From Accumulibacter sp. (GTDB lineage Bacteria > Pseudomonadota > Gammaproteobacteria > Burkholderiales > Rhodocyclaceae), in the NCBI RefSeq assembly GCF_023806635.1, contig NZ_JAMTDQ010000093.1:1-62356 (forward strand): a stretch of DNA of 62,356 nucleotides, given 5' to 3'. Each line of letters opens with the position of its first letter. Position 1 is the first letter of the stretch. A model generated the notes under the pieces. It was not told the origin of the DNA. It did no database searches and was given only the letters and a program-made list of their open reading frames with translations. Both the position numbers and the translations under genes were made by a program. Shown here in pieces: positions 1,836-61,437 of the stretch.

Positions 1836-1864
1836 GCCGAGTCTTGTTATAGGTTCCCCGTCCG

Positions 1865-3031: not shown

Positions 3032-3092
3032 GCCCGAAGGGCCGCCCCAAGGGCGAACAGCCCCGCAGCGCGTCAGCGCGGAGGGTAGTCCA

Positions 3093-27457: not shown

Positions 27458-27499
27458 CTGATTATACGTCGAAACGGCCGCCTGCAAGGCGGCTGCGGG

Positions 27500-38554: not shown

Positions 38555-38651
38555 GTGCAGGGTGGAGCGATCAATCAAGAGACTCCTGGCATCGACGCCC
38601 CACTCTGCAGTCGGTGCTGACGACGAAGCATCACCCGTCGTACTCCGTGCA

Positions 38652-39422: not shown

Positions 39423-39461
39423 GACACTCTCCCTCGTTGGTAGTAAACGACGACAGCCCGA

Positions 39462-39632: not shown

Positions 39633-39646
39633 GCTTGATGTCCTGG

Positions 39647-42941: not shown

Positions 42942-42947
42942 CTTTCC

Positions 42948-43511: not shown

Positions 43512-43531
43512 CGCTGTCCGATCCCGCCCGG

Positions 43532-43777
43532 CTAGGCCGCCATCAGGCGGCGTACGGCAGCAACGACGTCGGCGACCGACCGGATGTCCTTGAAGTCCTG
43601 TGGCTGAATACGCTTGCCAGTGAGCTTCTGCAACTGGATCGCGAGGTCGACAGCGTCGATGCTGTCGAGATCCAAGTCGGCAAACAACTGCGTTTCCGGT
43701 GTGACACGGGTCGCTTCGATTTCGAAGGCGTCATGCAGGATGGTCCGGAGCTTGTCGAGGATTTCCTGGTCGCTCAT
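43532..43777 (-). CDS. Acyl carrier protein (second)
   Basis: The 81-residue ACP has the phosphopantetheine attachment Ser in DLDLDSIDAVDLAIQL. It carries the growing chain as a thioester. It lies 13 bases after the first ACP gene. No phosphopantetheinyl transferase is in the window, so the general cellular enzyme must modify it. Confidence 0.93.
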   Translation of the reverse strand: MSDQEILDKLRTILHDAFEIEATRVTPETQLFADLDLDSIDAVDLAIQLQKLTGKRIQPQDFKDIRSVADVVAAVRRLMAA

Positions 43778-43790
43778 GGCGTTTCTCTCC

Positions 43791-44084
43791 TCAAGGTGTG
43801 TGGGTCAGGCTGCCTTTTCCCTGGTGCCGCACGAGCGCGGCAAGCGATAGGACGTTGCGGAAGTGTTCACGGATACGGCCATCACCGGCTTCGAGTTCGA
43901 TGCCGTACGTCTTCTTCATTGCAATGCCGAGTTCCAGCGCGTCGATGGAATCAAGGCCCAGGCCTTCGCCGAACAGGGGCATATCGCTAGCGATATCCTC
44001 CCCGCTTATGTCCTCGAGGTTCAGTACCTCGATGATGAGGATCTTGATGTCCTGTTCAAGCGTATCCATGGCGTCGTAGTTCAC
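43791..44084 (-). CDS. Acyl carrier protein (first)
   Basis: The 97-residue ACP has the attachment Ser in GLGLDSIDALELGIAM. An internal Met (MDTLEQDIK, at 44069) could be the true start. Characterised aryl polyene systems use two ACPs with distinct roles, matching this tandem pair. It overlaps the acyltransferase gene by 29 bases if the first Met is used. Confidence 0.92.
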   Translation of the reverse strand: MNYDAMDTLEQDIKILIIEVLNLEDISGEDIASDMPLFGEGLGLDSIDALELGIAMKKTYGIELEAGDGRIREHFRNVLSLAALVRHQGKGSLTHTP

Positions 44085-44838
44085 GGGAAAAATGGTCTTG
44101 AAGGGCGTTGGTCAAGTGCCGCGCACGGATGGCTGGCGTTGCCGCCATTGCTGCTTCTTCCTTCACCGTTGCCAGCTGTTCGCCAACGTCCACGCAGAAC
44201 GTGAAGGGGTGTTCCGGGGCAAGCCACCAAGGGGAATGCTTGGTCAATGTGGGCGGATCACAGCCGATCAGAACCGGCAGTATGGTGGCACCGCTTCTCA
44301 GGGCCACATGAGCGGCTCCGCGCTGGAAGCGAGGCACCTGGCCTGGCGTCGTGCGTGTGCCTTCGGGAAAAAGCAGCAGTGTCTCGCCCTGACGCAGTGC
44401 TTCCGCACAGGCTTCGATCACGCCCTCTGGTGAGGCATTGCTGATGTAACCGGCGGCACGGACGATGCCCCAGCAGAAGGGGTTTCGCCAGAGAGCAGCC
44501 TTGACGACGCAGTTGGCCTGCGGCATGAGAGAAATGAGGACGACGACGTCGCAGTAGGTCGGGTGATTGGCCACTACCAGCGTGCCGCGCGCCAGGGCGA
44601 GGCGCCCGGACTCCCGGGTCACCAGACGCATGGAGCCGCTACCGACGAGCGCCCTTATCAATAACCGAAAGCAGAAGCCAATTACGCAGCGGGCCCGCGT
44701 GCGACACTTGACCGCCGGATCGGGCAAGCTCATCAGCAACGGCATCAGCAGGGCCGACATCAGCGTGCCGCCGACAGCGAAGGCAACGAAGCAGAGTACG
44801 GCGACGAGACTGCGCCAGAGGCGCCCTGCCTCCTTCAT
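44056..44838 (-). CDS. 1-acyl-glycerol-3-phosphate acyltransferase-like (PlsC family)
   Basis: The 260-residue membrane-bound acyltransferase has a hydrophobic N-terminus, the catalytic NHPTYCDVVVL (HxxxxD) and the substrate motif FPEGTRTTPGQ. I chose ATG 44838 for its ATGA overlap with the chain-length factor; a start five codons earlier is possible. It likely helps join the polyene to a glycerolipid or sugar lipid. Confidence 0.9.
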   Translation of the reverse strand: MKEAGRLWRSLVAVLCFVAFAVGGTLMSALLMPLLMSLPDPAVKCRTRARCVIGFCFRLLIRALVGSGSMRLVTRESGRLALARGTLVVANHPTYCDVVVLISLMPQANCVVKAALWRNPFCWGIVRAAGYISNASPEGVIEACAEALRQGETLLLFPEGTRTTPGQVPRFQRGAAHVALRSGATILPVLIGCDPPTLTKHSPWWLAPEHPFTFCVDVGEQLATVKEEAAMAATPAIRARHLTNALQDHFSRELRRHGYA

Positions 44839-45494
44839 CGCAGATTCCAGCACCAGTGGTGCCGATCGCTGGTCCAGTCAGCCGAGCCTCGTTCGAGCGC
44901 CCGCAGGCAGGCGTTGGCCTGCAGGGTCGCTGGAGTTCCGACCATGGTGCCCGGACGGAACGCGGTATGCAGACGAGAGCTGGCATCCCCTTGGATCAGC
45001 AGGCCAAGGGCAAAGACCGCTTGGGGATCACCGGACTGCGGGCCGATCGGGTCGGGCGCTGGGGCGTCGGCGTACACGTAGACAAGTGGTTTCGCCGGGC
45101 TCTTCCGGGCACGCAGGTGCGCCTCGAGGAGGCCGTAGCCGAAGCTCTCGACTCCGGCCGCAATGGCCGTAGCCGGCGCTCGGTCGCCGCGGGCGATGGA
45201 GAAGATGCCGGCTGCCGCATTCAGCACCGAAAGGCTGAACAAGGTTGGCGACAGCTCCTCATCGTGCGCCAGGCTGCGCAGCAGCTCGACGGTTCGCGTC
45301 AGTTCCCCGTGGCGAGAGGCGAAGACGAAGGTTGCCGAGGGGCAGCCCTGCGCGCACGCATTGGCCACGTGCAGCGCCCCGCGCGCCAGTGACGACAGCC
45401 GGCGGCGCAGAAGCGGCTCGATGAAGCCGAGCTCAGCCGCCCCGATGCCTGGCCATTGGACCCAGCGTACGATGGGAACATCCCAAGAGATCAT
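44835..45494 (-). CDS. Ketosynthase chain-length factor (ApeC-like)
   Basis: The 219-residue protein matches the short ketoacyl-synthase-like family that acts as chain-length factor: IGAAELGFIEPLLRRRLSSL, LFSLSVLNAAAGIFSIARGD and AIAAGVESFGYGLLEA. The active-site Cys and both His of a working ketosynthase are absent. It should pair with the full ketosynthase at 31889-33082. I chose ATG 45494 (MISWDVPIVRW); a TTG eight codons earlier is possible. Confidence 0.85.
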   Translation of the reverse strand: MISWDVPIVRWVQWPGIGAAELGFIEPLLRRRLSSLARGALHVANACAQGCPSATFVFASRHGELTRTVELLRSLAHDEELSPTLFSLSVLNAAAGIFSIARGDRAPATAIAAGVESFGYGLLEAHLRARKSPAKPLVYVYADAPAPDPIGPQSGDPQAVFALGLLIQGDASSRLHTAFRPGTMVGTPATLQANACLRALERGSADWTSDRHHWCWNLR

Positions 45495-45533
45495 GGCTGC
45501 GCTCGGCGGTGCTGCCAAAATGTGGCAGACGAC

Positions 45534-45962
45534 CTAGAGCCTGTTCAGCTCCATCCGGATCGCATCGCGCAGCTCCGCGACCCAGCGGTTGTAGTAGGGG
45601 TGGATGATACGGACGTGCGTGTTCGGATCATGCGAATAGTTCATGTTCGTGCTGTCGTGATACACGATCGAATATGTCTGCGGTGAATAGGTGATGGCGA
45701 CGACAACAGTGTGTTTGCCGCGCACATTGAGTACGGCTTGCAGGCCACCGCCGTTTGGCGCGCCGGATACCTGCCAGCTATGCGACTGTGCTGCCGCAGT
45801 GATGGCCTGCCTGACCTGTTCGACCGTCAAAGCCTTTCCACTACTGGTCAGCACCGCGTTGTCGGGGTAATCGACGATCGGGACGGACTGACGCGCCTGG
45901 GCGAACAGAGGAACGATCAGCAAAGCGATCATGGCAAGAACTCGAACAATTGTCGCTTGCAT
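45534..45962 (-). CDS. Exported hypothetical protein, first gene of the pigment cluster
   Basis: The 142-residue protein has a signal peptide (MQATIVRVLAMIALLIVPLF, cleavage near AQA). The mature part contains VVVAITYSPQTYSIVYHDST and IIHPYYNRWVAELRDAI. This last motif recurs in small periplasmic hypothetical proteins of Gram-negative bacteria, with no known activity. It begins 40 bases before the chain-length factor on the same strand and is probably the promoter-proximal gene. Confidence 0.75.
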   Translation of the reverse strand: MQATIVRVLAMIALLIVPLFAQARQSVPIVDYPDNAVLTSSGKALTVEQVRQAITAAAQSHSWQVSGAPNGGGLQAVLNVRGKHTVVVAITYSPQTYSIVYHDSTNMNYSHDPNTHVRIIHPYYNRWVAELRDAIRMELNRL

Positions 45963-46635
45963 TCTTCAACCCCCCCGGTCGGATCGTGGCTAATATTCTA
46001 TGCTACATCTTAGGATTCACGCGACTCTTCTTCAAGGAAACAAGGACAGCCGTGACGCATGACCCTGCCGAATCGGGCCCGTTCGCCGGACAACCCTCCG
46101 CTTTCGCCGTTGGCGCGGTCAGATCGCGGCCGGCTGGCGGCCAGTGAGCGCTGGGTGGGCGGCTGACGTGCCGTGCGTGCAGAAGCTGTCGCGGCTTTCA
46201 GGATCTCTGGTGCGATCGCGTGCGAGGCTTTCCTAGCACCTTGAACGCTGCGTCGAAGGGTTCCCGGGGGGCGGCCATTCGAGTTGCCCGCGGCGCCCGA
46301 CCAGAGCGCAGGAAGCCCGTGCCGAAAGCGATGGAGGCCCGGCTGGGCGCCGCCGCCCCCCCCCCCCCGGGCAGTTCGCCACCAGCGGCAGGTTCAGCGA
46401 GCGCGGCTTCATACGGCAGGGTCCGAGCAACGAGTTGCAGATCCGCCGAAAGGATGGCGCCGGTATGGACGCGTTGTTCCATTGCGCAGATGTCCACGGT
46501 CAGGCCGGCATGGATGACTTGGGCCTGCATCGCCGTCCACATGATTGGGCATCTCACGCCATCGCGAACAGCGTTTCAGCGCGGTGGCAAGCACCCGGGG
46601 CACGACCTGCAGCACGATCGTGAGCAGTGCAGCAG
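45963..46635. other. Intergenic stretch upstream of the pigment cluster
   Basis: An AT-rich patch at about 45990-46020 (TAATATTCTATGCTACATC on the plus strand) is the likely promoter region of the minus-strand pigment cluster, with TATTAG as a possible -10. The rest is GC-rich, carries no gene I can support, and includes the 13-base C run at 46356-46368. Confidence 0.4.
46356..46368. repeat. Homopolymer of 13 C
   Basis: Thirteen consecutive C residues lie in a region without a supported gene, inside a minus-strand open frame (46198-46557) of unknown nature. It is the longest homopolymer I noticed in the window. Confidence 0.85.
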
Positions 46636-47898
46636 TCACTGAGCACTGGCCTGCATCTCCAGGATACGCCGGTAAGTGGCAATCACGACAGGACTGTTGA
46701 GAATGGATGTGTGGGTCTCGGTGAAGCCGAGGACCTCCCTCGCGTCGCGAACCGCGTCGGCGTGCAGTTGGCTCGACACGGCGATGGTGCCGTCGGTTGC
46801 CCTTTCGAAGGGCTGCGCGGGGTCGGTTTGAGCATAGAGCAGGTAATGCGCGGTTGCAGCAGGGAGCGGCCTGGCGAACATCGCCCGCTGGAACTCGCTC
46901 TCGGTTTGCATATCGACCCATGACGGAACGACCACAGGCGAGCGAGCGACGCCCATGGCCGCCGCTCGGTGGCCCCGCCACGGAGTGACCATTGACACGA
47001 ATACCGGCACCGGGCCACCGTAGCGCTGGATGAAGTCGCGCGCGAGCAGGCCACCCATGCTGTGCGCGGTCACGTAGAGGCGGTCGAAGCCGTACTCCCG
47101 CTGCATTGCCGTGACGCAGCGCTCCATTACCGCGACGGAGTTTGCGAGCCGCTGTCCGGACGGATAGACGAACACCCAGGGTTGGTAGAGCGAATGGTCA
47201 AGCGCTTCGATCAGGGCGCGCCACTCCCACGGGTTGCCACCAGCACCGCTGACAAACAGCACAGGTACCCGATTCGGGTCATACGGCGCGAGCATAAAGA
47301 TGCCAATGCCGACATTGGTCAGAAACTCGAATGGCTGCCACAGTCCCATGCGCCCACTCGTGGCCGAGAGCCGTTCGTCGTCCAGGTCCGTCACCTCGCC
47401 GACCCAAACCGGAAGCTCCTGGCGTTCAATCTTTGCCAGTGCCCGCAGCTCGGAGGCGATCGCGTGATCGACACGGCCGGTCCGCATGAGCGTGAGGTTG
47501 ATCTTGGCTATCCCCGTCCACCCCCGCGCCACGATGACGGTGTTCGGCGAGGCCACTGCAGGCTCGTCATCGTCCAAGCGGAGATTGTGGTTCCGGTCCG
47601 CGAAGGCCACGATGACGTAACGCTTGCCGACAACGAGCCGCATGAGAAAGTCATGCCGGGTCGCTAGGTGCACATGGTTCTCTGCGATCCACGTGTCGCC
47701 ATCTTCCCGCAATCCGACAACCACAATGGCGGAGTCTTCGCTCTCGTCATGAAACACCTTGCCGGCAACGCCCCCGGCCGCCGCGCCCGCCGTCAGGTCC
47801 CTGTGCAATGCCACCAGATTGCAGGAAGCAAGAACGAGAAGCATCGCGGCCACCCCGCCGGCGGTGAATGACCTGGTCCAACCCCTGTCGTTGCGCAC
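46636..47898 (-). CDS. Alpha/beta-hydrolase lipoprotein
   Basis: The 420-residue protein begins with a lipoprotein signal ending LLVLASC (Cys26), so it is probably outer-membrane anchored. After an N-terminal beta-rich part (about 40-170) comes a lipase-like alpha/beta-hydrolase fold with an oxyanion region VLFVSGAGGNPWEW and nucleophile Ser in YVTAHSMGGLLARDF; the final His is likely in FTETHTSIL. The substrate is unknown. It stands alone, transcribed away from the plus-strand MNT gene. Confidence 0.85.
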   Translation of the reverse strand: MRNDRGWTRSFTAGGVAAMLLVLASCNLVALHRDLTAGAAAGGVAGKVFHDESEDSAIVVVGLREDGDTWIAENHVHLATRHDFLMRLVVGKRYVIVAFADRNHNLRLDDDEPAVASPNTVIVARGWTGIAKINLTLMRTGRVDHAIASELRALAKIERQELPVWVGEVTDLDDERLSATSGRMGLWQPFEFLTNVGIGIFMLAPYDPNRVPVLFVSGAGGNPWEWRALIEALDHSLYQPWVFVYPSGQRLANSVAVMERCVTAMQREYGFDRLYVTAHSMGGLLARDFIQRYGGPVPVFVSMVTPWRGHRAAAMGVARSPVVVPSWVDMQTESEFQRAMFARPLPAATAHYLLYAQTDPAQPFERATDGTIAVSSQLHADAVRDAREVLGFTETHTSILNSPVVIATYRRILEMQASAQ

Positions 47899-48092
47899 GC
47901 CAAGCTCCCTTCGGTGGTTCAGCTCTCTGAGTTCAACCGTGGTGCCGGCAGGTCCCCAGCTTCAATGCAGCGACAGCCTTCAAGGCTCGGGGTGATTTTG
48001 TGCCGCACGGCACGTTCCACCGCCAAGCGAAGGACGAGAAATCCAACGGTACCGGAACGAGTATATGAGCCTTCGTCAACCCGCGTCAATGA

Positions 48093-48209
48093 CGCGTTTT
48101 CGGGGCCAGGTTCGACATTGACGCTGTTTGCTGACGAACCCTATACTCTGGCCGCTGCCGTTGGATTCCCTGTCCGCACGGGTGAAGTGCAGCGGACACC
48201 GGACCGACG
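48093..48209 (+). repeat. Promoter-bearing repeat, copy A
   Basis: This 117-base stretch matches 49605-49719 almost base for base. Both contain CGTTTTCGGGGCC, then TTCGACATTGACGCTGTTTG, then CTATACTC, and end near AGTGAAGTGCAGCGGACA. Inside is a sigma70 promoter (TTGACG 48118-48123, 18 bases, TATACT 48142-48147). It drives toward the MNT gene. Confidence 0.85.
48118..48147 (+). promoter_or_regulatory. Near-consensus sigma70 promoter in repeat copy A
   Basis: TTGACG and TATACT are separated by 18 bases, each one mismatch from consensus. The MNT start codon is 90 bases downstream. Confidence 0.65.
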
Positions 48210-48236
48210 TACCCGGTTGATGGAGAGAGTGGCGCC

Positions 48237-48566
48237 ATGATCGACATGCAGGACATCCTGGCGGCTGCCCGGCGATTGGTCGCTGCCGCCAGTTCGCCAA
48301 GTCGGGTCATCCTGTTCGGCTCCCATGCGCGGGGTATTGCCACCGAGGATTCCGACCTGGACCTGATGGTCATCGAGAAGGAACTGCCGGACAAGGCGGC
48401 AGAATACCTGCGCCTGCGCGGCGCGCTGGGCCGGATCGCGCCCGGCGTGGGCGTCGATCTGTTGCTCTATCCCCTGGCCGAATTCGAGCGACGCAGCCAG
48501 GTTCCGGGAACGGTCCTCCATGAGGCGCGCGTCGACGGCAAGGTGCTGCATGACGCCCTTCATTGA
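48237..48566 (+). CDS. MNT-type minimal nucleotidyltransferase
   Basis: The 109-residue protein has the polymerase-beta-like motif LFGSHARGIATEDSDLDLMV (GSxxRG and DxD) with a third Asp in GVGVDLLLY, so it looks active. In HEPN/MNT pairs this protein adds AMP to, and silences, the HEPN ribonuclease. GGAGAGAG lies 8 bases before the ATG. The partner gene begins inside its end but is broken. Confidence 0.88.
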   Translation: MIDMQDILAAARRLVAAASSPSRVILFGSHARGIATEDSDLDLMVIEKELPDKAAEYLRLRGALGRIAPGVGVDLLLYPLAEFERRSQVPGTVLHEARVDGKVLHDALH

Positions 48567-48632
48567 AGAAGCGCGGCGCCTGCTGAGTCTGGCTCGGGGC
48601 GATTACGCGGCGTTCGCCGTTCTTCGCGCGCC
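48550..48632 (+). pseudogene. Truncated HEPN partner gene
   Basis: ATG 48550 overlaps the MNT stop and gives MTPFIEEARRLLSLARGDYA then AFAVLR, the first helix of HEPN proteins. After that the frame loses similarity (APQRADLCTRR) and the RxxxxH catalytic motif is missing. The Uma2 gene begins at 48708, so most of the HEPN gene has been deleted. Confidence 0.55.
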
Positions 48633-48707
48633 TCAGCGAGCGGATCTCTGTACAAGGCGGAGTGCGCTGCCAGTATGGAGCCTTCATGGCGCAGGGAGGA
48701 TCTCGCG

Positions 48708-49280
48708 ATGCAGCACGGCAGAGTGATCCGTTGGACCGAGAGCGACTATCTGCGCGCCGAGCGCGAGGCGGTGGTGCGGCATGAGTATGTCGCCGGACAG
48801 CTTTTCGCCATGGCCGGCGGCAGCAAGGCTCACAACACGATTGCCCTGAACATTGCGGCGCGCCTGCGAACGCACTTGCGCGGCCGCCCGTGCCGTGCGT
48901 TCATAGCCGACATGAAAGTGCGCGTCGAGGGCGCGCGCAGCTATTACTATCCGGATGTCGTCGTGACGTGCCAGGCGGCAGACCTGTCGCCGGCCAGTCC
49001 GAGGGACTATTTGACGGCCCCTTCGTTGATCGTCGAAGTTCTCTCGGCGAGCACGGAAACCATCGACCGTCGGGAGAAGCTGCTGGCGTACGCGCAACTG
49101 CCGGGGCGTCTCGAGTACGTGCTGGTGGACAGCGCCAGCCGGCGGGTCGACATCTATCGTCAGGAGGAAGACGGCGAAATGGTGCTCGAGATTCCGGCGC
49201 AGGATGAACTCGTCCATCTCGACAGCGTGCGGCTTGCATTGACTTTCGAAGAAATCTACGAGGAATCCGGCATCGACTGA
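48708..49280 (+). CDS. Uma2 family (DUF820) PD-(D/E)xK nuclease-like protein
   Basis: The 190-residue protein has the Uma2 pattern: GQLFAMAGGSKAHNTIALNI, then RSYYYPDVVVTC with the acidic active-site residue, SLIVEVLSAST with the E, and RREKLLAY with the K. The role of the family is uncertain, although the fold is that of restriction nucleases. I chose ATG 48708 behind GGGAGGA. It follows the broken HEPN gene and precedes the duplicated cobB end. Confidence 0.85.
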   Translation: MQHGRVIRWTESDYLRAEREAVVRHEYVAGQLFAMAGGSKAHNTIALNIAARLRTHLRGRPCRAFIADMKVRVEGARSYYYPDVVVTCQAADLSPASPRDYLTAPSLIVEVLSASTETIDRREKLLAYAQLPGRLEYVLVDSASRRVDIYRQEEDGEMVLEIPAQDELVHLDSVRLALTFEEIYEESGID

Positions 49281-49390: not shown

Positions 49391-49577
49391 TCCCGGCGGC
49401 GTGACCCGCGTGCGTGTTCTGCATGCGGCGAGCGGCTGGTAGAGCCGATTGGGATTCCTGGCGTGGCGGGACGGGGAATCCTGCACGATCATGCGTCGGG
49501 AGACGACGCCGGAAAGCGGCTGCAAGGATCAGCCGTTGGCGCCGAAGAGGCGGGCGACCGCTGGCGGGTTGCCGGGG
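49391..49577 (+). repeat. Direct repeat containing the cobB 3' end, copy 1
   Basis: The 187 bases match 56264-56449 at most positions (about 85-90 per cent by eye). The last 49 (49529-49577), read on the minus strand, encode SPGNPPAVARLFGANG and a stop, almost the same as the CobB C-terminus. With copy 2 it brackets the Cus cassette. Confidence 0.85.
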
Positions 49578-49604
49578 CTGAGGAGCGAGGCGCTCCATGG
49601 ACGA

Positions 49605-49719
49605 CGTTTTCGGGGCCGGGTTCGACATTGACGCTGTTTGCTGACGGACCCTATACTCGGGTCGCTGCCGTTGGATGCCTTGTCCGCCAGAGTGAAGTGC
49701 AGCGGACAGCGGACCGCCG
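49605..49719 (+). repeat. Promoter-bearing repeat, copy B
   Basis: This is the second copy of the element at 48093-48209, with the same -35 and -10 and the same spacing (TTGACG 49628-49633, TATACT 49652-49657). It lies just upstream of the cusF-like gene. Confidence 0.85.
49628..49657 (+). promoter_or_regulatory. Near-consensus sigma70 promoter in repeat copy B, for the Cus operon
   Basis: TTGACG, 18 bases, TATACT. The Cus genes start about 120 bases downstream on the same strand. No CusR/CopR-type box was recognised. Confidence 0.6.
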
Positions 49720-49777
49720 CACCAACGCCTACCCTCTCCACGGGCGCCCCTGACCGATCGAGAAAGGAGTACGACCC

Positions 49778-50122
49778 ATCCAGACCCGCCTCTCCCTGCT
49801 GCTCGCCGCTGCCCTGTTCGCCGCCCCTGCCGCCGCCGTCGCAGCCGCGGCCGACCACTCCGGCCACGGCGCGCCGTCCGACAGGGCTGCGCCCGTTTCC
49901 GCCATGGCGGACGGCGAAGTGCGCCGCATCGACGGCGCCGCCGGCTCCGTGACACGCGGGCACGGCCCGATCGCGAACCTTGGCATGCCGGCGATGACGA
50001 TGACCTTCGCGGTCATTCCCAACGGTGCCCTCGACAAGCTAAAGGTCGGCGACAAGGCGAAGTTCGTCGCCGAGGACCGCTCGGGCAACACCGTCATCAC
50101 GGAGATGGAGCCTGCCCGCTGA
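49778..50122 (+). CDS. cusF: CusF-like periplasmic copper-binding protein, apparent ATC start
   Basis: The 114 codons begin at ATC 49778, 8 bases after AGGAG, and encode a signal peptide (QTRLSLLLAAALFAAPAAA) before the CusF fold GEVRRIDGAAGSV. There is no ATG, GTG or TTG between the upstream in-frame TGA (49751) and ATG 49904, which would drop the signal peptide. The metal-site residues are His62, Met70, Met73 and Met75; E. coli CusF has Trp in place of Met70. CusF passes Cu(I)/Ag(I) to CusB/CusA. Conservative annotation would use ATG 49904. Confidence 0.75.
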   Translation: MQTRLSLLLAAALFAAPAAAVAAAADHSGHGAPSDRAAPVSAMADGEVRRIDGAAGSVTRGHGPIANLGMPAMTMTFAVIPNGALDKLKVGDKAKFVAEDRSGNTVITEMEPAR

Positions 50123-50168
50123 GCGCAGGATCCGCCATCCGGGTCGCGCGTCCCGAAAGGATCTGCCC

Positions 50169-51563
50169 ATGAGCAAGTCCCTGATCATTGCCGTCGGCGG
50201 CCTGCTCGGGCTGCCGCCCAGCGCCTGGGCCGACCCCGGACTGCCACCGGCCGCGCCACCGGTGGTGATCGCCCAGGCGGCCCCGGCCCCCGCATCGGCG
50301 GCCGCCGCAGCTGCCACGGATCGACCCTGGCTCGCGCCCCTCGATCCGCTCGTCGCCGAGACCCTGCAGCGCAACCCGGAGATCCAGGCCGCCCGCCGCG
50401 AGCGGGAGGCTGCGGCGCACCGGGTGGCGCCGGCCGGCGCCTTCGACGACCCCACGCTCGAGGCCGGTTTCATCAACGTCCCTCTGCCGTCGCTATCGCT
50501 CAGCCGGGAGGACATGACGATGAAGATGATCGGTCTCGGGCAGCGGCTGCCGTTCTGGGGCAAGCGCGGGCTGCGGCAGGAGGTGGCCGCACGCGACGCC
50601 GAGGCGGTGGACCACGGCTACGAGGAAACGGTGAACCGGGTGGTACGGGAGCTGCTCGTGTCGTGGTACGACCTCGCGCTCGCCACGCAGTCCGAGCAGC
50701 TGATCGAGCGCAACCGCGCCGTCCTCGTGAAACTCGTGAGGAGCGCCGAGGGCCGCTACGGAGTCGGCCAGGGGGCTCAGGCCGACGTCCTGCGGGCGCA
50801 GACCCAGCTCAGCCGCATGCTGGACGAGCTCCTGCGCATGCAGCGGGACCGTTCGATGGCCGAGGGCGAGGTCGGGCGCGTGCTCGTGCTGCGTGGCGCG
50901 CCGCTCGGTCGCAGCGCGCAGCTTCCGCCGCCAGCCGCCGCGCCGCCCCCGCTCGCCGGGCTGCGCGAGCGCGCCTTCGCGCAGCGCCCGCAGCTGCGCG
51001 CGCTGCACAGCCTGCTGGCGAAGAACGAGCGTGCCATCGAACTGGCGCGCAGGGACGGCCTGCCCGACTTCGACGTGAAGGTCGCCTACGGCGCCCGCAA
51101 TCCCGACCCGCTCGGCATGAAGCGCGACGACATGATCACGCTGACGGTCGCGATGAACCTGCCGATCTGGCGCGAGACCAAGGTCGATCCGCGCATCGCC
51201 GAGGCGCGCGCCCTGCGCGAGCAGGCACAGGCCATGCTGGAGGCCCAGCAGGACGAGATCCGCATGCGGCTGCACCATCAGCACGCCACGGCGACCCAGC
51301 TCGCGCGCTCGCTCGCTCTTTACGATCGGGAAATCCTGCCGCAGGCCCGCCTTACCCTCGAATCCACGCTCTCCGCCTACCAGGTCGGGCGAGTCGAGTT
51401 CATGACGCTGCTCGACAGCCAGATGGCCGTCTTCAACTACGAGCTGGCCCGGCTCACCGCGCTCGCCGGCTACCACAAGGCGCAGACCGAGATCGACTTC
51501 CTCACCGGGCGGCTCGCCGCGGACGCGCTGGGCCTCGACCACGACAGGGGGAAAGAACTGTGA
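50169..51563 (+). CDS. cusC: Outer membrane efflux protein CusC-like (TolC family)
   Basis: The 464-residue protein has a signal peptide (MSKSLIIAVGGLLGLPPSAW, cleavage near AWA) and two outer-membrane-efflux-protein repeats made of long helices. It forms the outer membrane channel of the CusCBA pump. It ends in a GTGA overlap with cusB. The lipoprotein Cys of E. coli CusC is absent, as in many homologues. Confidence 0.88.
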   Translation: MSKSLIIAVGGLLGLPPSAWADPGLPPAAPPVVIAQAAPAPASAAAAAATDRPWLAPLDPLVAETLQRNPEIQAARREREAAAHRVAPAGAFDDPTLEAGFINVPLPSLSLSREDMTMKMIGLGQRLPFWGKRGLRQEVAARDAEAVDHGYEETVNRVVRELLVSWYDLALATQSEQLIERNRAVLVKLVRSAEGRYGVGQGAQADVLRAQTQLSRMLDELLRMQRDRSMAEGEVGRVLVLRGAPLGRSAQLPPPAAAPPPLAGLRERAFAQRPQLRALHSLLAKNERAIELARRDGLPDFDVKVAYGARNPDPLGMKRDDMITLTVAMNLPIWRETKVDPRIAEARALREQAQAMLEAQQDEIRMRLHHQHATATQLARSLALYDREILPQARLTLESTLSAYQVGRVEFMTLLDSQMAVFNYELARLTALAGYHKAQTEIDFLTGRLAADALGLDHDRGKEL

Positions 51564-53068
51564 AGAGCGCACGCATCGCCGCCGTCGCGCTGGCCATCCT
51601 GGTCGCTGCGGCGATCGGCTACTGGTGGGGCGCCCGCCAGCAGGCGATGCTTCCCGCCAAAACCGACGCGGCCGCGGCGGCCCCCGCCGCCGGCGAGCGC
51701 AAGGTCCTCTACTACCGCAACCCCATGGGGCTGCCCGACACCTCACCCGTGCCCAAGAAGGACTCGATGGGCATGGATTACATTCCCGTCTACGAGGGCG
51801 AGGACAAGGCCGGCGGCGGCGTGGGGCTCTCGCCCGAGAAGATCCAGATGACCGGCGTGCGCACCGAGGCGGCTGCGCCGCGCGAGCTCGGCCAGACGCT
51901 GCGCGTGGCCGGCCGGGTCGAGTTGAACGAGCGGCGCGTGTACGCGGTGACGCCGAAGTTCGAGGGCTGGATCGAGAAGCTCTACGTCAACGCCACCGGC
52001 CAGGGCGTGCGCGCCGGCGACCCGCTGATGGAGGTCTACAGCCCCGACCTCGTCACCGCGCAGCAGGAGTACCTCATCGCGCTGCGCGGTTCGGCCGCGG
52101 CGGGCGCCGAAACCGGCGACACGCTGAAGCGCCTCCAGGAGGGCGCCCTCGCGCGGCTGAAGAACTGGGACATCAGCGAGGCGGACCTCGAGCGGCTGCG
52201 CCGCGAGGGCACGGTGCGGCGCACGCTCACCCTGCGCTCGCCGGTGGGCGGCCTGGTGCTGGAGAAGCCCGCCGTGCAGGGCATGCGCTTCATGCCCGGC
52301 GAAATGCTCTTCCGCGTCGGCGATCTCGGCGCCGTGTGGGTGATCGCCGAGGTGCCCGAGCGCGAGCTCGGCGCGGTCCGCGTCGGCCAGAAGGCGCGCG
52401 TGCAGGTGACCGCGCTCCCGGGCCGCGATTTCGACGCCACCGTGGCCTTCGTCTACCCCACCCTCAACGCGCAGACGCGCACCGCGCAGGTGCGTCTCGA
52501 GCTCGCCAACCCCGGCGGCGTGCTGAAGCCGGCGATGTACTCGAGCGTGGAGCTCGCCGCGGGCGGCCGCGGCCGCGTGCTCGCGGTGCCGGCCGCGGCG
52601 GTGATCGACAGCGGCAGCCGGCGCGTGGTGCTGGTCCAGTCGGGCGAGGGGCGCTTCGAGCCGCGCGACGTCGAGCTGGGCGCACGCGGCGACGACTACG
52701 TCGAGATCGTAAAGGGCGTGAAGGACGGCGAGCGCGTGGTGGTCGGCGGCAACTTCCTCATCGACTCGGAGAGCAACCTGCGCGCAGCGCTGGCCGGCTT
52801 CACCGCGCCGCCGCGGGCCACTCACTCCGCCACGGGCGCCGTGCGGTCGATCGACCTCTCCGCTGGCACCGTCTCGCTGCGCCACGATCCTGTGCCGAGC
52901 CTCAGCTGGCCCGCCATGACGATGGACTTCGCGATGCAGGACAAGGGCGCGCTGAAGGCGCTCAAGCCGGGCCAGGAGGTCGAGTTCGACTTCCGCGAGG
53001 AGGGACAGGGCAACTGGACCGTCACCCGCATCGCGCCGCGCGCGGTGGCCGCACACAAGGGCCACTGA
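51560..53068 (+). CDS. cusB: Membrane fusion protein CusB-like with fused C-terminal CusF domain
   Basis: The 502-residue periplasmic adaptor is anchored by an N-terminal helix (VALAILVAAAIGYWWGA). Next comes a heavy-metal-binding motif (YYRNPMGLPD with DSMGMDYIPVY), the HlyD-type barrel and hairpin (about 95-400), and a C-terminal CusF-like domain with HDPVPSLSWPAMTMDF, in which the His, Trp and Met ligands are all kept. I chose GTG 51560 for its overlap with cusC. Confidence 0.92.
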   Translation: MKSARIAAVALAILVAAAIGYWWGARQQAMLPAKTDAAAAAPAAGERKVLYYRNPMGLPDTSPVPKKDSMGMDYIPVYEGEDKAGGGVGLSPEKIQMTGVRTEAAAPRELGQTLRVAGRVELNERRVYAVTPKFEGWIEKLYVNATGQGVRAGDPLMEVYSPDLVTAQQEYLIALRGSAAAGAETGDTLKRLQEGALARLKNWDISEADLERLRREGTVRRTLTLRSPVGGLVLEKPAVQGMRFMPGEMLFRVGDLGAVWVIAEVPERELGAVRVGQKARVQVTALPGRDFDATVAFVYPTLNAQTRTAQVRLELANPGGVLKPAMYSSVELAAGGRGRVLAVPAAAVIDSGSRRVVLVQSGEGRFEPRDVELGARGDDYVEIVKGVKDGERVVVGGNFLIDSESNLRAALAGFTAPPRATHSATGAVRSIDLSAGTVSLRHDPVPSLSWPAMTMDFAMQDKGALKALKPGQEVEFDFREEGQGNWTVTRIAPRAVAAHKGH

Positions 53069-53069
53069 G

Positions 53070-56000
53070 ATGCTCAGCCGCCTGATCGAATGGTCGGCCC
53101 GCAACCCGTTGCTGATTCTCATCGCCACCGCGTTCACGGTGGCCGCCGGCCTGTACGCGATGGCGCGCACGCCGCTCGACGCCCTGCCCGACCTCTCGGA
53201 CGTGCAGGTGATCGTCTACACGGACTTCCCGGGGCAGGCGCCGCAGGTCGTCGAGGACCAGGTCACCTACCCGCTCGCCACCGCCATGCTGTCGGTGCCG
53301 AAATCGCGCGTGGTCCGCGGCTTCTCGTTTTTCGGCGCGTCGTTCGTCTACGTCATTTTCGAGGACGGCACGGACATCTACTGGGCCCGCTCGCGGGTGC
53401 TCGAGTACCTGAACTCGGTGGCGGGGCGCCTGCCGCCGGGGGTCGCCCCGACGCTGGGGCCCGACGCGACCGGGGTGGGGTGGGTATACCAGTACGCGGT
53501 CGTCGGCAAGGAGCGTACGCTCGCCGAGTTGAGGAGCCTGCAGGACTGGTTCCTGCGCTATCAGATCGCCAAGGCGCCGGGCGTGGCGGAGGTCGCCACC
53601 GTCGGCGGCTTCGTACAGCAATACCAGGTGACGGTGGACCCGCGCCGGCTGCAGAGCTACGGCATCCCGCTGATGAAAGTCGTCGCCGCGATCCGCGCGA
53701 GCAACCGCGACGTCGGCGGCCGCACCGTGGAACTCGCCGAGACCGAGTACATGGTGCGCGGCCAGGGCTACCTGCGCGGCATCACCGACCTCTCCGAGAT
53801 CGTCGTCAAGAGCGAGGGCGGCACGCCCGTGCTGCTGCGCGACGTCGCGCGCATCGAGCTCGGCCCCGACGAGCGCCGGGGCATTGCCGAGCTCGACGGG
53901 CACGGCGAGGTCGTCTCGGGCATCGCGGTCGCGCGCTACAGGCAGAACGCCCTTGCGGTCATCGACAACGTCAAGGCCAAGATGGCCGAGGTCGCGAGCG
54001 GCCTGCCCGCGGGCGTCGAATTGAAGACCGTCTACGACCGCTCCGAGCTCATCCGCCGCGCGATCGACACGCTCAAGAACACGCTGCTCGAGGAAGCCGT
54101 GATCGTCGCGCTGGTGTGCATCGTGTTCCTGCTGCACGTGAGGAGCGCGCTGGTGGCGATCCTGATGCTGCCGGTGGGCGTGCTCATCGCCTTCATCTGC
54201 ATGCACGCGCTGGGCATCAACTCCAACATCATGAGCCTGGGCGGCATCGCGATCGCCATCGGCGCGATGGTGGACGCCGCCATCGTGATGATCGAGAACG
54301 CGCACAAGCACCTCGAGCGCCTGCCGCCCGGGGGATCGCGCTTCGACGCGATGGTGACCGCCTGCCAGGAGGTGGGCCCGGCGCTGTTCTTCAGCCTGCT
54401 CATCATCACCGTGTCGTTCCTGCCCGTGTTCACCCTGGAGGCGCAGGAGGGGCGGCTCTTCCAGCCGCTCGCCTACACCAAGACGTTCGCCATGGCCGGC
54501 GCGGCGCTGCTCTCGGTGACGCTGGTCCCCGTGCTGATGCTGCTCTTCATCCGCGGCCGCATCCTGCCCGAGTCGAAGAACCCGGTGAACCGCTTCCTCA
54601 TCTGGATCTACCGCCCGGTCATCACGGCGGTGCTGCGCTGGTGCCCGCTGACCATCGCGCTCGCCGTGGCGGCGCTGGCGCTCACCGCGTGGCCGATGGC
54701 GCGACTGGGCACCGAGTTCATGCCGACGCTCAACGAGGGCACCCTCTTCTACATGCCCACGGCACTGCCGGGGATGTCGGTCACCAAGGCCACCGAGCTC
54801 CTGCAGACGCAGGATCGCATCCTCAAGGGCTTCCCCGAGGTCGGGTCGGTGATCGGCAAGGCGGGCCGCGCCAATTCGGCAACCGACCCCGCGCCCATCG
54901 AGATGTTCGAGACCGTGATCAACCTCAAGCCCGAGTCCGAGTGGCGGCCGGGCATCGACATCGACAGTCTGATCGCGGAGATGGACCGCGCCCTGCAGTT
55001 CCCCGGCGTGGCCAACTCGTGGACCATGCCCATCAAGGCGCGCATCGACATGCTCTCGACCGGCATCCGCACGCCCATCGGCATCAAGGTCTTCGGCAAG
55101 GACCTCGCCGAGATGGAGACGCTCGCGCGCGAGATCGAGGCGGTCGTGCGCAACGTGCCGGGGACGACGAGTGCCTACGCCGAGCGCGTGACCGGCGGCT
55201 ATTACCTCAACATCGCCCCCGACCGCGCGCGCATCGCCCGCTATGGCCTCACGGTGGACGACGTGCTGGAGGTCGTGGCGACCGCGCTGGGCGGGGAGCC
55301 CATCACCACGACCGTCGAAGGCCGGGAGCGCTACGCGGTGATCGTGCGCTACCCGCGCGACCTGCGCGACGACCCGGGTCGCATCGCCACGCAGGTGCTG
55401 GTGCCGACGATGGACGGCGCGCAGGTGCCCCTCGGACAGGTCGCGAAGGTCGAGCTCGCCAAGGGCGCGCCGATGATCCGCACCGAGAACGGCCTGCTCT
55501 CGGTCTACATCTACGTCGACATGCGCGGCCGCGACATCGGCGGCTACGTCGCCGACGCCCAGCGCGCGGTGCGCGGGGAGGTCAAGTTCGCCCCCGGGTA
55601 CTACGTGACGTGGTCCGGCCAGTTCGAGTCCCTCGAGCGGGCCAAGGCGCGCATGAAGCTCGTCGTCCCGTTCACCCTCGGCATCATCTTCCTGCTGCTC
55701 TACCTCAACTTCCGCCGCCTCACCGAGACGCTCATCGTGATGCTCTCGGTGCCCTTCGCGCTGATCGGCGGGGTGTGGCTCATGTGGCTGCTCGGCTACA
55801 ACATGAGCGTGGCCGTCGCGGTCGGCTTCATCGCGCTGGCGGGCGTGGCCGCGGAAACCGGAGTGGTGATGCTGATCTACCTCGACCACGCGTTCGAGGC
55901 ACGCCGCGCGCAGCGGGCGTCCGCCGGGCAGCCCGTGGCGATGGCCGACCTCCACGCCGCGGTCATGGAGGGCGCCGTCGAGCGCGTGCGGCCGAAGATG

Positions 56001-56180
56001 ATGACCGTGTGGGCCATCATCGCCGGTCTGCTGCCGATCATGTGGGGCACGGGCACCGGCTCCGAAGTCATGCGCCGGATCGCGGCCCCCATGGTCGGCG
56101 GCATGGTTTCGTCCACCGTGCTGACGCTGGTGGTCATCCCCGCCATCTACGCGCTGGTCAAGGGCCGCGGCCTGCGGTGA
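53070..56180 (+). CDS. cusA: RND heavy-metal efflux pump CusA-like
   Basis: The 1036-residue proton-driven pump has twelve membrane helices, two large periplasmic loops and the RND proton-relay motif GAMVDAAIVMIENAHKHLE. The sequences GRANSATDPAPIEMFET and MPTALPGMSVTKATEL mark the monovalent-metal (HME) type. It exports Cu(I)/Ag(I) from the periplasm or inner membrane through CusB and CusC. It starts one base after the cusB stop. A 220-base space to the cobB end contains repeat copy 2. Confidence 0.94.
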   Translation: MLSRLIEWSARNPLLILIATAFTVAAGLYAMARTPLDALPDLSDVQVIVYTDFPGQAPQVVEDQVTYPLATAMLSVPKSRVVRGFSFFGASFVYVIFEDGTDIYWARSRVLEYLNSVAGRLPPGVAPTLGPDATGVGWVYQYAVVGKERTLAELRSLQDWFLRYQIAKAPGVAEVATVGGFVQQYQVTVDPRRLQSYGIPLMKVVAAIRASNRDVGGRTVELAETEYMVRGQGYLRGITDLSEIVVKSEGGTPVLLRDVARIELGPDERRGIAELDGHGEVVSGIAVARYRQNALAVIDNVKAKMAEVASGLPAGVELKTVYDRSELIRRAIDTLKNTLLEEAVIVALVCIVFLLHVRSALVAILMLPVGVLIAFICMHALGINSNIMSLGGIAIAIGAMVDAAIVMIENAHKHLERLPPGGSRFDAMVTACQEVGPALFFSLLIITVSFLPVFTLEAQEGRLFQPLAYTKTFAMAGAALLSVTLVPVLMLLFIRGRILPESKNPVNRFLIWIYRPVITAVLRWCPLTIALAVAALALTAWPMARLGTEFMPTLNEGTLFYMPTALPGMSVTKATELLQTQDRILKGFPEVGSVIGKAGRANSATDPAPIEMFETVINLKPESEWRPGIDIDSLIAEMDRALQFPGVANSWTMPIKARIDMLSTGIRTPIGIKVFGKDLAEMETLAREIEAVVRNVPGTTSAYAERVTGGYYLNIAPDRARIARYGLTVDDVLEVVATALGGEPITTTVEGRERYAVIVRYPRDLRDDPGRIATQVLVPTMDGAQVPLGQVAKVELAKGAPMIRTENGLLSVYIYVDMRGRDIGGYVADAQRAVRGEVKFAPGYYVTWSGQFESLERAKARMKLVVPFTLGIIFLLLYLNFRRLTETLIVMLSVPFALIGGVWLMWLLGYNMSVAVAVGFIALAGVAAETGVVMLIYLDHAFEARRAQRASAGQPVAMADLHAAVMEGAVERVRPKMMTVWAIIAGLLPIMWGTGTGSEVMRRIAAPMVGGMVSSTVLTLVVIPAIYALVKGRGLR

Positions 56181-56263
56181 CGGCGCGGCGCGGTAGGCGT
56201 CGCGGGCCTGCGGAAGCGGCGGGTCAAGGATTTCGTCGATCACCGGGAATTCTGCCGGCCGCG

Positions 56264-56449
56264 TCCCGGCGGCGTGACCCGCGTGCGTGTGCTGCATGCG
56301 GCAAGCGGCCGGTGGCGCCGGTTGGGATTCGCGGCGCGGCGGGACGGGAAGCGTGTACGATCATGCGTCGGGAGACGACGCCGGAAAGCGACTGCAACGA
56401 TCAGGCGGCGGCGCCGAAGAGGCGGGCGACCGCCGGCGGGTTGCCGGGG
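56264..56449 (+). repeat. Direct repeat containing the cobB 3' end, copy 2 (the genuine gene end)
   Basis: This copy includes the last 16 codons and the stop of the intact cobB (minus strand) plus 137 bases beyond it. See copy 1 at 49391-49577. Confidence 0.85.
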
Positions 56450-57687
56450 AAGTAGAAGTGAACGTAGGAAGCGGTGATCGGGCCGTGGCGGTAGATCGCC
56501 TCGCCGTCGCCGCCCGTCGGCCGGCGCGCGCGGCAGAACGGCGGCAGCGGCGTTTCGCTGCGCGAGTAGTGGAAGGTGTGGCCGGAGAGCGTGCCCTCGG
56601 GCAGTTCGGCGACCTGCATGCCGAGCGCAGCCAGGCGTTGCTGCATCACCGCGCGTCCGGGCAGCAGTCCGGCCAGCGCGTGCCGCCGACCCTCGCGGTC
56701 GACGAGCTCGTCGAAGAGGCTCATCATGCCGCCGCACTCGGCGAGCAGCGGCCGGCCGGCGGCGACGTGGGCGGCGAGTGCCTGCCAGAGGTCACGCCGC
56801 GTCGCCAGCATCGCCGCATGCAGCTCGGGGTAGCCGCCGGGCAGCCATAGCGCATCGCAGGCGGGCAACGCGTCGCCGGCGAGCGGCGAGAAGAAGTGGA
56901 TCTCGGCACCCAGCTCGTGCAGCGTGTCGACGTTGGCCGGGTAGATGAAGCCATGGGCGGCGTCGCGCGCGATGGCGATGCGGCGGCCGGCGAGCAGGGC
57001 CGCATGCGGCGCGCTCGCCGCCGCTGCGAAGTGTACCGGCGGTGGCAGGCCGATGTTCGCCGTCGCCGCCAGTGCGTCGGCAAGTCGGTCGAGGCGGCCG
57101 CTCAGGTCGGCGATCTCGGCTGCCTGCAGCAGCCCGAGATGACGCTCCGGCAGGCTGTCGTCGCTGCGCGGGACAGCGCCGAACCAGCCCATTCCCGCTG
57201 GCAGGCTGTCGCGCAGCAGTTCGCTGTGGCGGCTGCTGCCGCTGCGGTTCGCCAGCACGCCGGCAAACGGCAGCCCGGTCCGGTAGGTCGCGAGGCCGTG
57301 TGCGACGGCGCCGAAGGTCTGCGCCATCGCCCGTGCGTCGATCAGTGCCAGCACCGGAATGCCGAACAGGCAGGCGATGTCGGCCGCCGACGGCTCGCCG
57401 TCGAAAAGCCCCATGACGCCCTCGATCAGGATCAGGTCGGAATCGGCAGCGGCGCGTGCCAGCCGGATGCGCGCGTCGTCCTCGCCGCACATGCCGAGGT
57501 CGAGGTTGTAGCACGGGCGCCCGCTGGCGACGGCGTGGATCTGCGGGTCGAGGAAGTCGGGCCCGCACTTGAAGACGGTGACGCGTCGTCCCTGGCGCGC
57601 GTGCAGGCGGGCGAGGGCGGCCGTCACCGTCGTCTTGCCCTGGCCGGAAGCGGCAGCGGCAACCAGCATCGCCGGGCAGTGCGGCAT
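56401..57687 (-). CDS. cobB: Cobyrinate a,c-diamide synthase
   Basis: The 428-residue enzyme amidates the a and c carboxyls of (hydrogeno)cobyrinate with glutamine and ATP. It has the P-loop AAAASGQGKTTVTAALA, EGVMGLFDG, and a type I glutaminase domain with the nucleophile Cys in LLAECGGMMSL and the His in SYVHFYF. It is complete, but lies about 29 kb from the riboswitch operon and has no riboswitch of its own that I can see. A fragment of its middle recurs at 61313-61437. Confidence 0.94.
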   Translation of the reverse strand: MPHCPAMLVAAAASGQGKTTVTAALARLHARQGRRVTVFKCGPDFLDPQIHAVASGRPCYNLDLGMCGEDDARIRLARAAADSDLILIEGVMGLFDGEPSAADIACLFGIPVLALIDARAMAQTFGAVAHGLATYRTGLPFAGVLANRSGSSRHSELLRDSLPAGMGWFGAVPRSDDSLPERHLGLLQAAEIADLSGRLDRLADALAATANIGLPPPVHFAAAASAPHAALLAGRRIAIARDAAHGFIYPANVDTLHELGAEIHFFSPLAGDALPACDALWLPGGYPELHAAMLATRRDLWQALAAHVAAGRPLLAECGGMMSLFDELVDREGRRHALAGLLPGRAVMQQRLAALGMQVAELPEGTLSGHTFHYSRSETPLPPFCRARRPTGGDGEAIYRHGPITASYVHFYFPGNPPAVARLFGAAA

Positions 57688-58005: not shown

Positions 58006-59718
58006 ATGGCCCATACGAGGACGGCGTTGCAGCGGCGCCAGGCGGAATCCCGCATGAGCCCGAAGGTTTCCGAGCGGGGTGCGATGCCCTCACTGCAGGG
58101 AATGCCGAGGTTTCTCGGGATCGGCGCGGCGCGGCAACCGGCGAACGACATCGCGCGCGACGGCGTGCAAGGCGCCGGCCGGGCGCTGCCGCACGGCGAG
58201 CGCATCCAGGATTCGTTCGGATCGCGGCATGATCTGTCGTCGGTACGGATGCACGTCGGCAGGAAGTCGAGCGAAGCCTGCGACCGGCTCGGCGCGGCCG
58301 CGTTTGCGACCGGCTCATCGATCGCGTTTCGTTCCGACCCCGACCTGTGGCTGGCCGCGCATGAAGCGGCGCATGTGATCCAGCAGCGCCATGGCGAGGG
58401 ACCGCCGGCCGGTCTCGACTCGCCAGGTGACCGCCACGAGCGCGCGGCGAGCGCGGTGGCCGATCGGGTGGTGGCCGGGAAGTCCGCCAGCGATCTGCTG
58501 CCGCGCGGCGAGGGGCGGGCAGCCGGCGGTGCCGGCGGCGCCGTCCAGCGCTACACGATCGAAACGCTCGGAGCAGGACGTGCGCAGGTTGGCGAAACCA
58601 AGCAGACGGCCTTGTTCGGGTCGCAGACGCTGTATGCGACACCCGGACTCATCAGCGGAGCGAACTCCAAGCTTCAGGCGGCGGGCAAACAGGGCTCGTA
58701 CATCGAGCTGAAGGCCGCCGGTGGCTCGGTCAGCGTCGATGGCAACTCGCTGACCGGTGTCCAGCCGGAATTCCTCGCCAAGCCGGGGAGTGCCCACTCG
58801 GGAGTGGAAAAGGCCAATGCGCCGGGCGGCATGGACACCGAAGGAACAGCCAATGGCCCGATGGCCCTGTGGACCGACTGCGGCCGCTCGTCGGCGGCGG
58901 TGACCGGTTCTGCCGGCGGTGGCGACCGCAGTGTGGTCTATTTCGACAACGGCGTCGCCAAGCTCGGCAAGGGCGTCGACGACTCGACGGTTTCGGACTG
59001 GCTCAAGGGCGAGCCGAACCAGATGGCGAACCAGGTCTACATGGACCTGCTGCCACGCTTCATCGAGCGCTCGGACAACGCGGCGTTCGTCGTCGAGGGC
59101 GTGCACTACGACATGAAGAGCAACACGGCATCGGGCGCGCTGGCGGGTGCGGCCGTCGGTGCCGGGCTCGGTGCCCTGGTCGGCAGTTTCGTCGGCGGCA
59201 TCGGCGCGGTTCCCGGGGCCATCATCGGCGGCGTGGCAGGCGCAATCGGCGGCGCGGTCATCGGTTCGCAGGCGCGGAGCAAGGTCTTTCGCATGCCCGC
59301 CACCATTGCCGAAGCCAAGGCGATGTACCTGGCGCTGGGCAGCGCCGGCATGGACAAGTTCGACAAGGAGGCGGGAATCAACTTCCATGCCAATCCGGAG
59401 ATCGGCGAGTCCTACTCGATGGCGACCGAGGGCGACATGCCGGGTTTCAAGTCGTACCCCGGCGTCGATACATGGAATTACCACTGGGCCGGCGTCGTGA
59501 TGAAGGATGGTAGCGACAACATCACGCTCGAGAACTATGCCGTCACCGAGAAGTACGCGGCCAGCAAGGGGGTCGACCAGTATGACTTCATCGACCGCCA
59601 ATGGAATTTCGCCATGTATGGCACGGTGGACAAGAGCCAGACGTTCCACCAGGAGCACCTGGCCAGCAAGACGCATGGTTCGCACGCGACGTCGATTGCG
59701 GTCCGGACCGACCAGTGA
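58006..59718 (+). CDS. DUF4157 protein with glycine-zipper helix and possible C-terminal enzymatic domain (toxin-like)
   Basis: The 570-residue protein has a DUF4157 domain (about 60-130) with the metallopeptidase motif HEAAH (His119, Glu120, His123). A Gly/Ala-rich hydrophobic stretch (about 376-420) looks like a glycine zipper. A region around it has Cys292 in WTDCGRSSAAV and His493 in NYHWAGVVMKDG followed by ENYA. The Cys, His and Asn/Glu spacing suggests a papain-like site split by the zipper, but this is inference. DUF4157 proteins are often cargo of contractile injection systems. GGGGAGAA precedes the ATG. Confidence 0.85.
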   Translation: MAHTRTALQRRQAESRMSPKVSERGAMPSLQGMPRFLGIGAARQPANDIARDGVQGAGRALPHGERIQDSFGSRHDLSSVRMHVGRKSSEACDRLGAAAFATGSSIAFRSDPDLWLAAHEAAHVIQQRHGEGPPAGLDSPGDRHERAASAVADRVVAGKSASDLLPRGEGRAAGGAGGAVQRYTIETLGAGRAQVGETKQTALFGSQTLYATPGLISGANSKLQAAGKQGSYIELKAAGGSVSVDGNSLTGVQPEFLAKPGSAHSGVEKANAPGGMDTEGTANGPMALWTDCGRSSAAVTGSAGGGDRSVVYFDNGVAKLGKGVDDSTVSDWLKGEPNQMANQVYMDLLPRFIERSDNAAFVVEGVHYDMKSNTASGALAGAAVGAGLGALVGSFVGGIGAVPGAIIGGVAGAIGGAVIGSQARSKVFRMPATIAEAKAMYLALGSAGMDKFDKEAGINFHANPEIGESYSMATEGDMPGFKSYPGVDTWNYHWAGVVMKDGSDNITLENYAVTEKYAASKGVDQYDFIDRQWNFAMYGTVDKSQTFHQEHLASKTHGSHATSIAVRTDQ

Positions 59719-61312: not shown

Positions 61313-61437
61313 GCTGCCGACGCTCGCCGTGGCGGCCAGCGCGTCGGCAATGCGGTAGAGGCGGCCGGCCAGGTCAGTGATCCCGGCCGCGTGCAACAGC
61401 CCGAGAGGACCCTCCGGCAGGCTGTCGTCGCTGCGCA
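61313..61437 (-). pseudogene. Internal fragment of cobB
   Basis: The minus-strand reading RSDDSLPEGPLGLLHAAGIT, then LAGRLYRIADALAATASVG, parallels RSDDSLPERHLGLLQAAEIA and LSGRLDRLADALAATANIG in the intact CobB (57050-57171). Neither flank continues into cobB. It is a degenerate duplicate of the gene's middle. Confidence 0.8.

Follow-up and report, generated by a model that had tools for sequence, protein, structure and literature searches.

How did a metal-efflux operon come to lie between two copies of the 3' end of cobB? The question is raised by a 62,356-nucleotide stretch of an Accumulibacter sp. genome (assembly GCF_023806635.1, contig NZ_JAMTDQ010000093.1; hereafter the window), in which an earlier note, made from the sequence alone, had described a cusF-C-B-A cassette bracketed by direct repeats and suggested integration at a gene 3' end or recombination between two repeat copies. 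We searched 150 genomes, namely the window genome (G000) and 149 relatives, 27 of them of the same genus. In a group of species of the genus, insertions have gathered at the intergenic site between cobB and a cobalamin riboswitch, a hot spot of a known general kind with an unusual layout. The cus locus is most simply explained if an older inserted unit was duplicated in tandem and cus now fills the second of the two. Taken as a whole, this history (hot spot, older insertion, tandem duplication and replacement by cus in the second unit) is our best explanation, and we give it a probability of about 0.5.

The repeat joins a toxin-gene remnant to the cobB 3' end

BLAST comparison of the window with itself aligned 56264–56449 with 49391–49577 over 187 columns, at 89.8% identity and with one gap (E 7e-66). 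The cobB stop codon is at 56401–56403 and the repeat, here called R1, reaches 56449, so that the last 16 codons of cobB, stop included, lie inside it. The 187-bp repeat with these codons and the bases beyond them, and the position of the real cobB end in the second copy, are thus as the earlier note had them. R1 is a compound sequence: the 3' remnant of a ParE-type toxin gene makes up its left half, and the cobB 3' end with its non-coding flank its right half. Its parts are as follows.

49391–49486, plus strand: R1 copy 1, left half, 3' remnant of a parE toxin gene
49487–49577, minus strand: R1 copy 1, right half, copy of the cobB 3' end, stopping within 1 base of where the left copies of two relatives, G003 and G027, stop in cobB
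56202–56358, plus strand: longer parE remnant, of which 56264–56358 is the left half of R1 copy 2 and 56202–56263 lies between the R1 copies
56359–56449, minus strand: R1 copy 2, right half, the genuine cobB 3' end
56401–57687, minus strand: cobB, CobB/CobQ-like, cobyrinic acid a,c-diamide synthase (Pfam CbiA and GATase_3)

The parE halves (49391–49486 and 56264–56358), together with 56202–56263, align to DNA of two further relatives, G022 and G009, where the parE half occurs alone and away from cobB. The counterpart DNA in G022 encodes ParD (Pfam E 4e-6) and a ParE toxin (E 6e-13); the 57-residue peptide of the window remnant has no Pfam match of its own. The complete repeat is much more restricted. 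No third copy was found in the window's own genome among the 40 of 104 first-look candidates that were scored (E ≤ 0.001). Across the 150 genomes, with five candidates scored in each, R1 was matched in 11, the own genome included; near full length it recurs only in G003 and G027, once each and at cobB, and the remaining eight gave partial matches only. Neither search placed the full repeat at many unrelated loci, which the earlier note had named as the sign of a simple dispersed repeat, and that reading is rejected.

Between the inner edges of the R1 copies (49578 and 56263) lie 6,686 bp. They hold four intact cus genes, as had been proposed, but the genes do not occupy the interval alone: a second repeat, R2 (49600–49723), and part of the parE remnant (56202–56263) are also there. 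A cargo flanked by direct repeats might suggest a cus transposon, the 187 bp being its target-site duplication. However, 187 bp at 90% identity is far beyond what we take to be the size of such duplications, rather than short and identical; no inverted repeats of at least 20 bp were found at the segment edges (shorter ones were not sought); and all four genes scanned between the repeats are cus genes. We consider this origin very improbable. An assembly artefact or chance similarity is less probable still: although the 4.47-Mb assembly is in 119 contigs, the E value is extreme, a 10% divergence between copies is not expected from the misjoin of one sequence, and parts of the arrangement are common to relatives.

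The cobB end is an insertion hot spot

Relatives' loci were compared through their similarity to window DNA and window proteins. DNA of the cobB region was matched in 86 of the 150 genomes, 22 of which were compared by tblastn; all 22 have cobB, whole or partial, and six (G015, G025, G021, G023, G003 and G027) also have cbiM alongside. The left side of the site in the window comprises these features.

26454–27254: CbiM (Pfam)
27247–27465, minus strand: cobalamin riboswitch of the cbiM operon (Rfam RF00174, 117.5 bits), neighbour of cobB in the insert-free relatives
27459–27505, plus strand: left copy of the non-coding stretch of the cobB end, with TATAAT retained on the minus strand
27756–27941, minus strand: transposase fragment (HTH_Tnp_1), at the left edge of the insert

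The site is empty in G015, G025 and G021, where the riboswitch side (window position 27505) joins cobB (window 56348–56359) directly; because the flanks are joined in these genomes, 27506–56358, about 29 kb, is inserted in the window genome. The cus cassette lies inside this insert, which is larger than the earlier note had claimed. In G003 and G027 the site holds a cobB-end copy, an R2-like sequence, a Uma2 gene, a parE remnant and cobB, with no cus genes there, and in G023 it holds R2 and an MNT gene. Relatives with cobB and without the cassette, which the note had proposed to look for, are thus found both with an empty site and with other contents. Judging by titles and the openings of abstracts, we found no work on this cobB-end site.

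The proposed integration at a gene 3' end is upheld as regards the place of insertion, the cobB 3' end, and by the cassette-free relatives, but not as a fresh site-specific event, given the 10% drift between the repeats and the lack of a Phage_integrase match on the contig. Seven such matches were found in the genome, all on other contigs, and the 20 window open reading frames (ORFs) scanned include no recombinase; serine recombinases and transfer genes were not specifically sought. Recent mobility of the cus segment is unsupported because the R1 copies have drifted by this 10%; loss of the segment by recombination between the repeats is possible. Integration at a tRNA gene is rejected, as there is none in the window. 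An integron-like reading, which the stacked layout might suggest, was also considered. Excision scars were considered for G015 and G025, in which the single 47-bp copy of the non-coding stretch looks left-type on its left and right-type on its right; plain ancestry explains this equally and we do not claim excision.

The site resembles the known build-up of islands at gene ends, and the main rival explanation starts from there: integrase-bearing elements would have targeted the cobB 3' end serially and lost their integrases, leaving units between attachment sites in the manner of cis-mobilizable elements (CIMEs). It accounts for insertion at the 3' end of a housekeeping gene with the gene end restored, for units in tandem, for a breakpoint that is the same within 1 bp in three cobB-end copies, and for inserts in four of the seven genomes with this synteny, own included. 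The missing Phage_integrase on the contig and the 20 recombinase-free ORFs speak against it, with the limit given above for serine recombinases and with relatives' inserts not scanned. Together with the R1 evidence given below, this leaves serial accretion possible but doubtful.

The cobB end probably overlaps the riboswitch operon promoter

The riboswitch is transcribed away from cobB, and its 5' edge coincides with a minus-strand TATAAT (27466–27461); because of this coincidence, the promoter of the riboswitch operon probably reaches into the cobB end. The hexamer is retained in all seven left or sole copies of the stretch and in none of the five right copies. Over the 47-bp non-coding stretch, the identity of the window's left copy to its own right copies is 60–64%, and that of the G003 and G027 right copies to the right copies of the window is 80–87%. 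G023 aside, this pattern would fit an old duplication in which the copies have kept different functions. The predicted overlap of gene end and promoter could explain why insertions here bring duplication.

A promoter-like dispersed repeat alternates with R1

R2 was recognized as a pair (48091–48213 and 49600–49723) of 89.5% identity, which keeps step with R1.

48037–48090, minus strand: inverted R2 copy, promoter-like site at 48089–48060
48091–48213, plus strand: R2 copy 1, dispersed repeat, promoter-like site at 48118–48147 (TTGACG-18-TATACT)
48237–48566, plus strand: MNT-type nucleotidyltransferase (Pfam NTP_transf_2/Polbeta)
48675–49280, plus strand: Uma2-family gene (Pfam Uma2), which also adjoins cobB in G003 and G027
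49600–49723, plus strand: R2 copy 2, promoter-like site at 49628–49657, upstream of cusF

After the MNT gene, 48567–48674 has a short start that we take to be HEPN-like, perhaps of a broken partner; it has no Pfam match. Between 48000 and 56500 there are only three sigma-70-like sites, one per R2 copy, where shuffled sequences average 0.6. R2 is dispersed within the genus: counting the own genome and the query place, 13 of 28 genomes have it, at 25 listed places in all. The ORFs 3' of it, read at the 11 of 23 loci with R2 on the plus strand, differ from locus to locus and include MNT in G023 and Uma2 in G027. The promoter-like site of copy 2 ends about 120 bases before cusF, and this predicted promoter could drive the cus operon. 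The order in the window is R2-MNT-Uma2-R1-R2-cus-R1-cobB.

Tandem duplication of an older unit is the simplest account

Identity between the R1 copies is 93% over their cobB halves and 85% over their parE halves. They have derived bases in common in either half, when compared with G003, G027, G022 and G009 for the parE half and with the cobB-linked copies for the cobB half. These common bases disfavour a foreign origin of one copy, relative to the relatives compared, and such lineage-specific changes are what local duplication would leave, which counts against serial accretion. In the cobB half it is copy 1 that has drifted further, copy 2 having the base of the G003 right copy at five of the six differing sites, and both carry private changes in the parE half. 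A small tree joins the R1 copies as a sister pair (78/84), with the G003 and G027 right copies adjacent; the R2 copies also form a sister pair, more weakly (76/67). Similarity to cobB ends at offset 91 in copy 1 and at offset 90 in the left copies of G003 and G027. The alternation R2-R1-R2-R1 points to a duplicated unit, and a tandem duplication via the flanking cobB-end copies would explain this order, the equal divergence of the R1 and R2 pairs and the shared breakpoint.

We propose the following course of events. An older unit rich in toxin-antitoxin genes (R2-MNT-Uma2-parE) would have entered cobB about 16 codons before its stop, leaving a cobB-end copy on each side, as is still the case in G003 and G027. 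In the window lineage a tandem copy of this unit may then have arisen, for which unequal homologous recombination between the two cobB-end copies is the simplest route, giving R2-MNT-Uma2-R1-R2-...-R1-cobB. The interior of the second unit would have been replaced by cusF-C-B-A, which now stands behind the promoter-like sequence of R2; the left side holds an 18–20-kb block and the transposase fragment. Such an insertion could survive since the left copy would keep the promoter of the riboswitch operon and the right copy the end of cobB. The best reading of the cus operon is that it came to occupy one unit later on.

The same order R1-R2-cus-R1 would result if a circle carrying R1-R2-cus, from the same or a very close strain, had integrated in the Campbell manner by a single homologous crossover at R1, which needs no integrase. 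Such a circle must already hold the junction of cobB with R2, and on present data its integration is indistinguishable from unequal exchange; we consider it unlikely.

Several observations weigh against the duplication history. The sister pairs of R1 and of R2 are modestly supported, and the G023 copy of R2, which precedes the MNT gene of that genome, falls outside the window pair in the R2 tree. The near-identical breakpoints are compatible with site-specific cleavage as well. Between the cobB break and R2, the spacer bears only a weak resemblance to its G003 counterpart (p 0.036 from 2000 shuffles), and no MNT or Uma2 remnant was seen in the second unit. In the 47-bp stretch, the right copy of G023 is 64% identical to the right copies of the window and 87% to its left copy, and groups apart from the other right copies. 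No -35 match was found near the TATAAT at the scanner threshold, and because of this its role as a promoter is put forward as a prediction.

The locus has metal-efflux genes within an old toxin-antitoxin hot spot, whose promoter they may use, and it suggests a testable rule: where a gene end overlaps the promoter of its neighbour, insertions would persist only if the overlap is duplicated, the copies then keeping different functions. A bolder extension, which we regard as speculative and rather improbable, is that R2-led units form an integrase-free cassette system, in which a dispersed promoter repeat and its cargo stack behind cobB by homologous recombination; the site would stay open since gene end and riboswitch promoter overlap, only duplicative insertions being viable and each copy then specializing.

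The cus operon

The cus genes themselves are arranged as follows.

49778–50122, plus strand: cusF (Pfam CusF_Ec from 49904), with an in-frame signal-peptide-like stretch from ATC 49778 behind AGGAG; first ATG at 49904
50169–51563, plus strand: cusC, outer-membrane efflux protein (Pfam OEP)
51560–53068, plus strand: cusB with a C-terminal CusF domain (Pfam)
53070–56180, plus strand: cusA (Pfam), methionines 562, 612 and 661

The alignment of CusA to E. coli CusA chains spans residues 3–1030 of 1036. Its methionines 562, 612 and 661 each lie 11 below residues 573, 623 and 672, which we take to be the metal residues of the E. coli protein. With this three-methionine site, placed by the E. coli numbers so assumed, and with CusB, CusC and CusF, the segment has the marks of a Cus resistance-nodulation-division efflux operon. 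Like the copper/silver efflux operon CusCFBA it contains the CusF, CusC, CusB and CusA families; unlike it, its CusB bears a C-terminal CusF domain. There is no ATG at the apparent start of cusF (ATC at 49778–49780), which may reflect a lost ATG, a sequencing error or a rare start.

The whole cus segment was matched in 130 of the 150 genomes, own included; besides the own genome, the widest match among those listed is in G144 (query 781–6586, 72%). A search of genome contigs with cusC gave 77 loci with best-segment identities of 30–60%, mostly from Nitrosomonadaceae and other Betaproteobacteria, a set from which records near the window genome may be left out. Among plasmids, 3251 records matched the query 49760–56200, none with one place covering 80% of it.

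The wider locus is a mosaic

The left part of the insert contains two further features.

28030–46046, minus strand: block of ketosynthases, MMPL exporter, LolA-like protein, aromatic amino acid lyase and glycosyltransferase/acyltransferase, also in G027 and G025
46636–47898, minus strand: alpha/beta hydrolase gene, which adjoins the same block in G027

The block, which we take to be aryl-polyene-like, occurs in G027 (88%) and G025 (84–86%) at other genomic places, with no flanks shared between these two genomes within 5–9 kb on each side. Trees of the flanks and of rpoB group the window genome differently: rpoB joins it to G027 as a pair (100/100), but in each of the trees of cobB, the cbiM side and the downstream stretch it is G000, G015 and G025 that stand apart from the other genomes compared (100/100; G021 is missing from the downstream set and, in the cobB set, divided in two). 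From these trees, the locus appears to recombine between species.

Other fragments lie nearby. A 121-bp internal piece of cobB (61316–61436, 85% identical to 57049–57169) is found upstream of cobB near a KAP NTPase gene, which adjoins cobB in G027, and short cobB pieces lie several kb from cobB in G015, G023 and G027. Positions 46047–46191 form a repeat with many matches across the genus, several in the own genome, among the matches listed. Beside cobB, 58006–59718 encodes a core domain of an extracellular contractile injection system (eCIS); of the six relatives' loci that share this synteny, five have the gene, two of these in part.

Comparison with known systems

Like mobile promoters, R2 is a dispersed repeat with a predicted promoter-like site. 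The Dehalococcoides ssrA islands are tandem and bounded by gene-end repeats, 15 of them without integration modules, and they involve 20-bp repeats and the integrase DsiB (PMC3146451). The units in the window are likewise in tandem and bounded by gene-end repeats, whereas neither 20-bp repeats nor an integrase were seen at the site. CIMEs are described as cargo without recognized integration genes between direct repeats, one of which includes the end of the target gene, with tandem accretion at gene 3' ends (PMC5704250). The window shares with them the flanking direct repeats that include the target gene end, here that of cobB, a cargo without integration genes recognized in the Phage_integrase search of the contig and the 20 ORFs scanned, and tandem build-up. 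In contrast to CIMEs as presented there, the window has no recognized integrase or decayed integrative element (serine recombinases not sought), the repeat copies at the site are 10–40% diverged, and the units begin with a promoter-like dispersed repeat.

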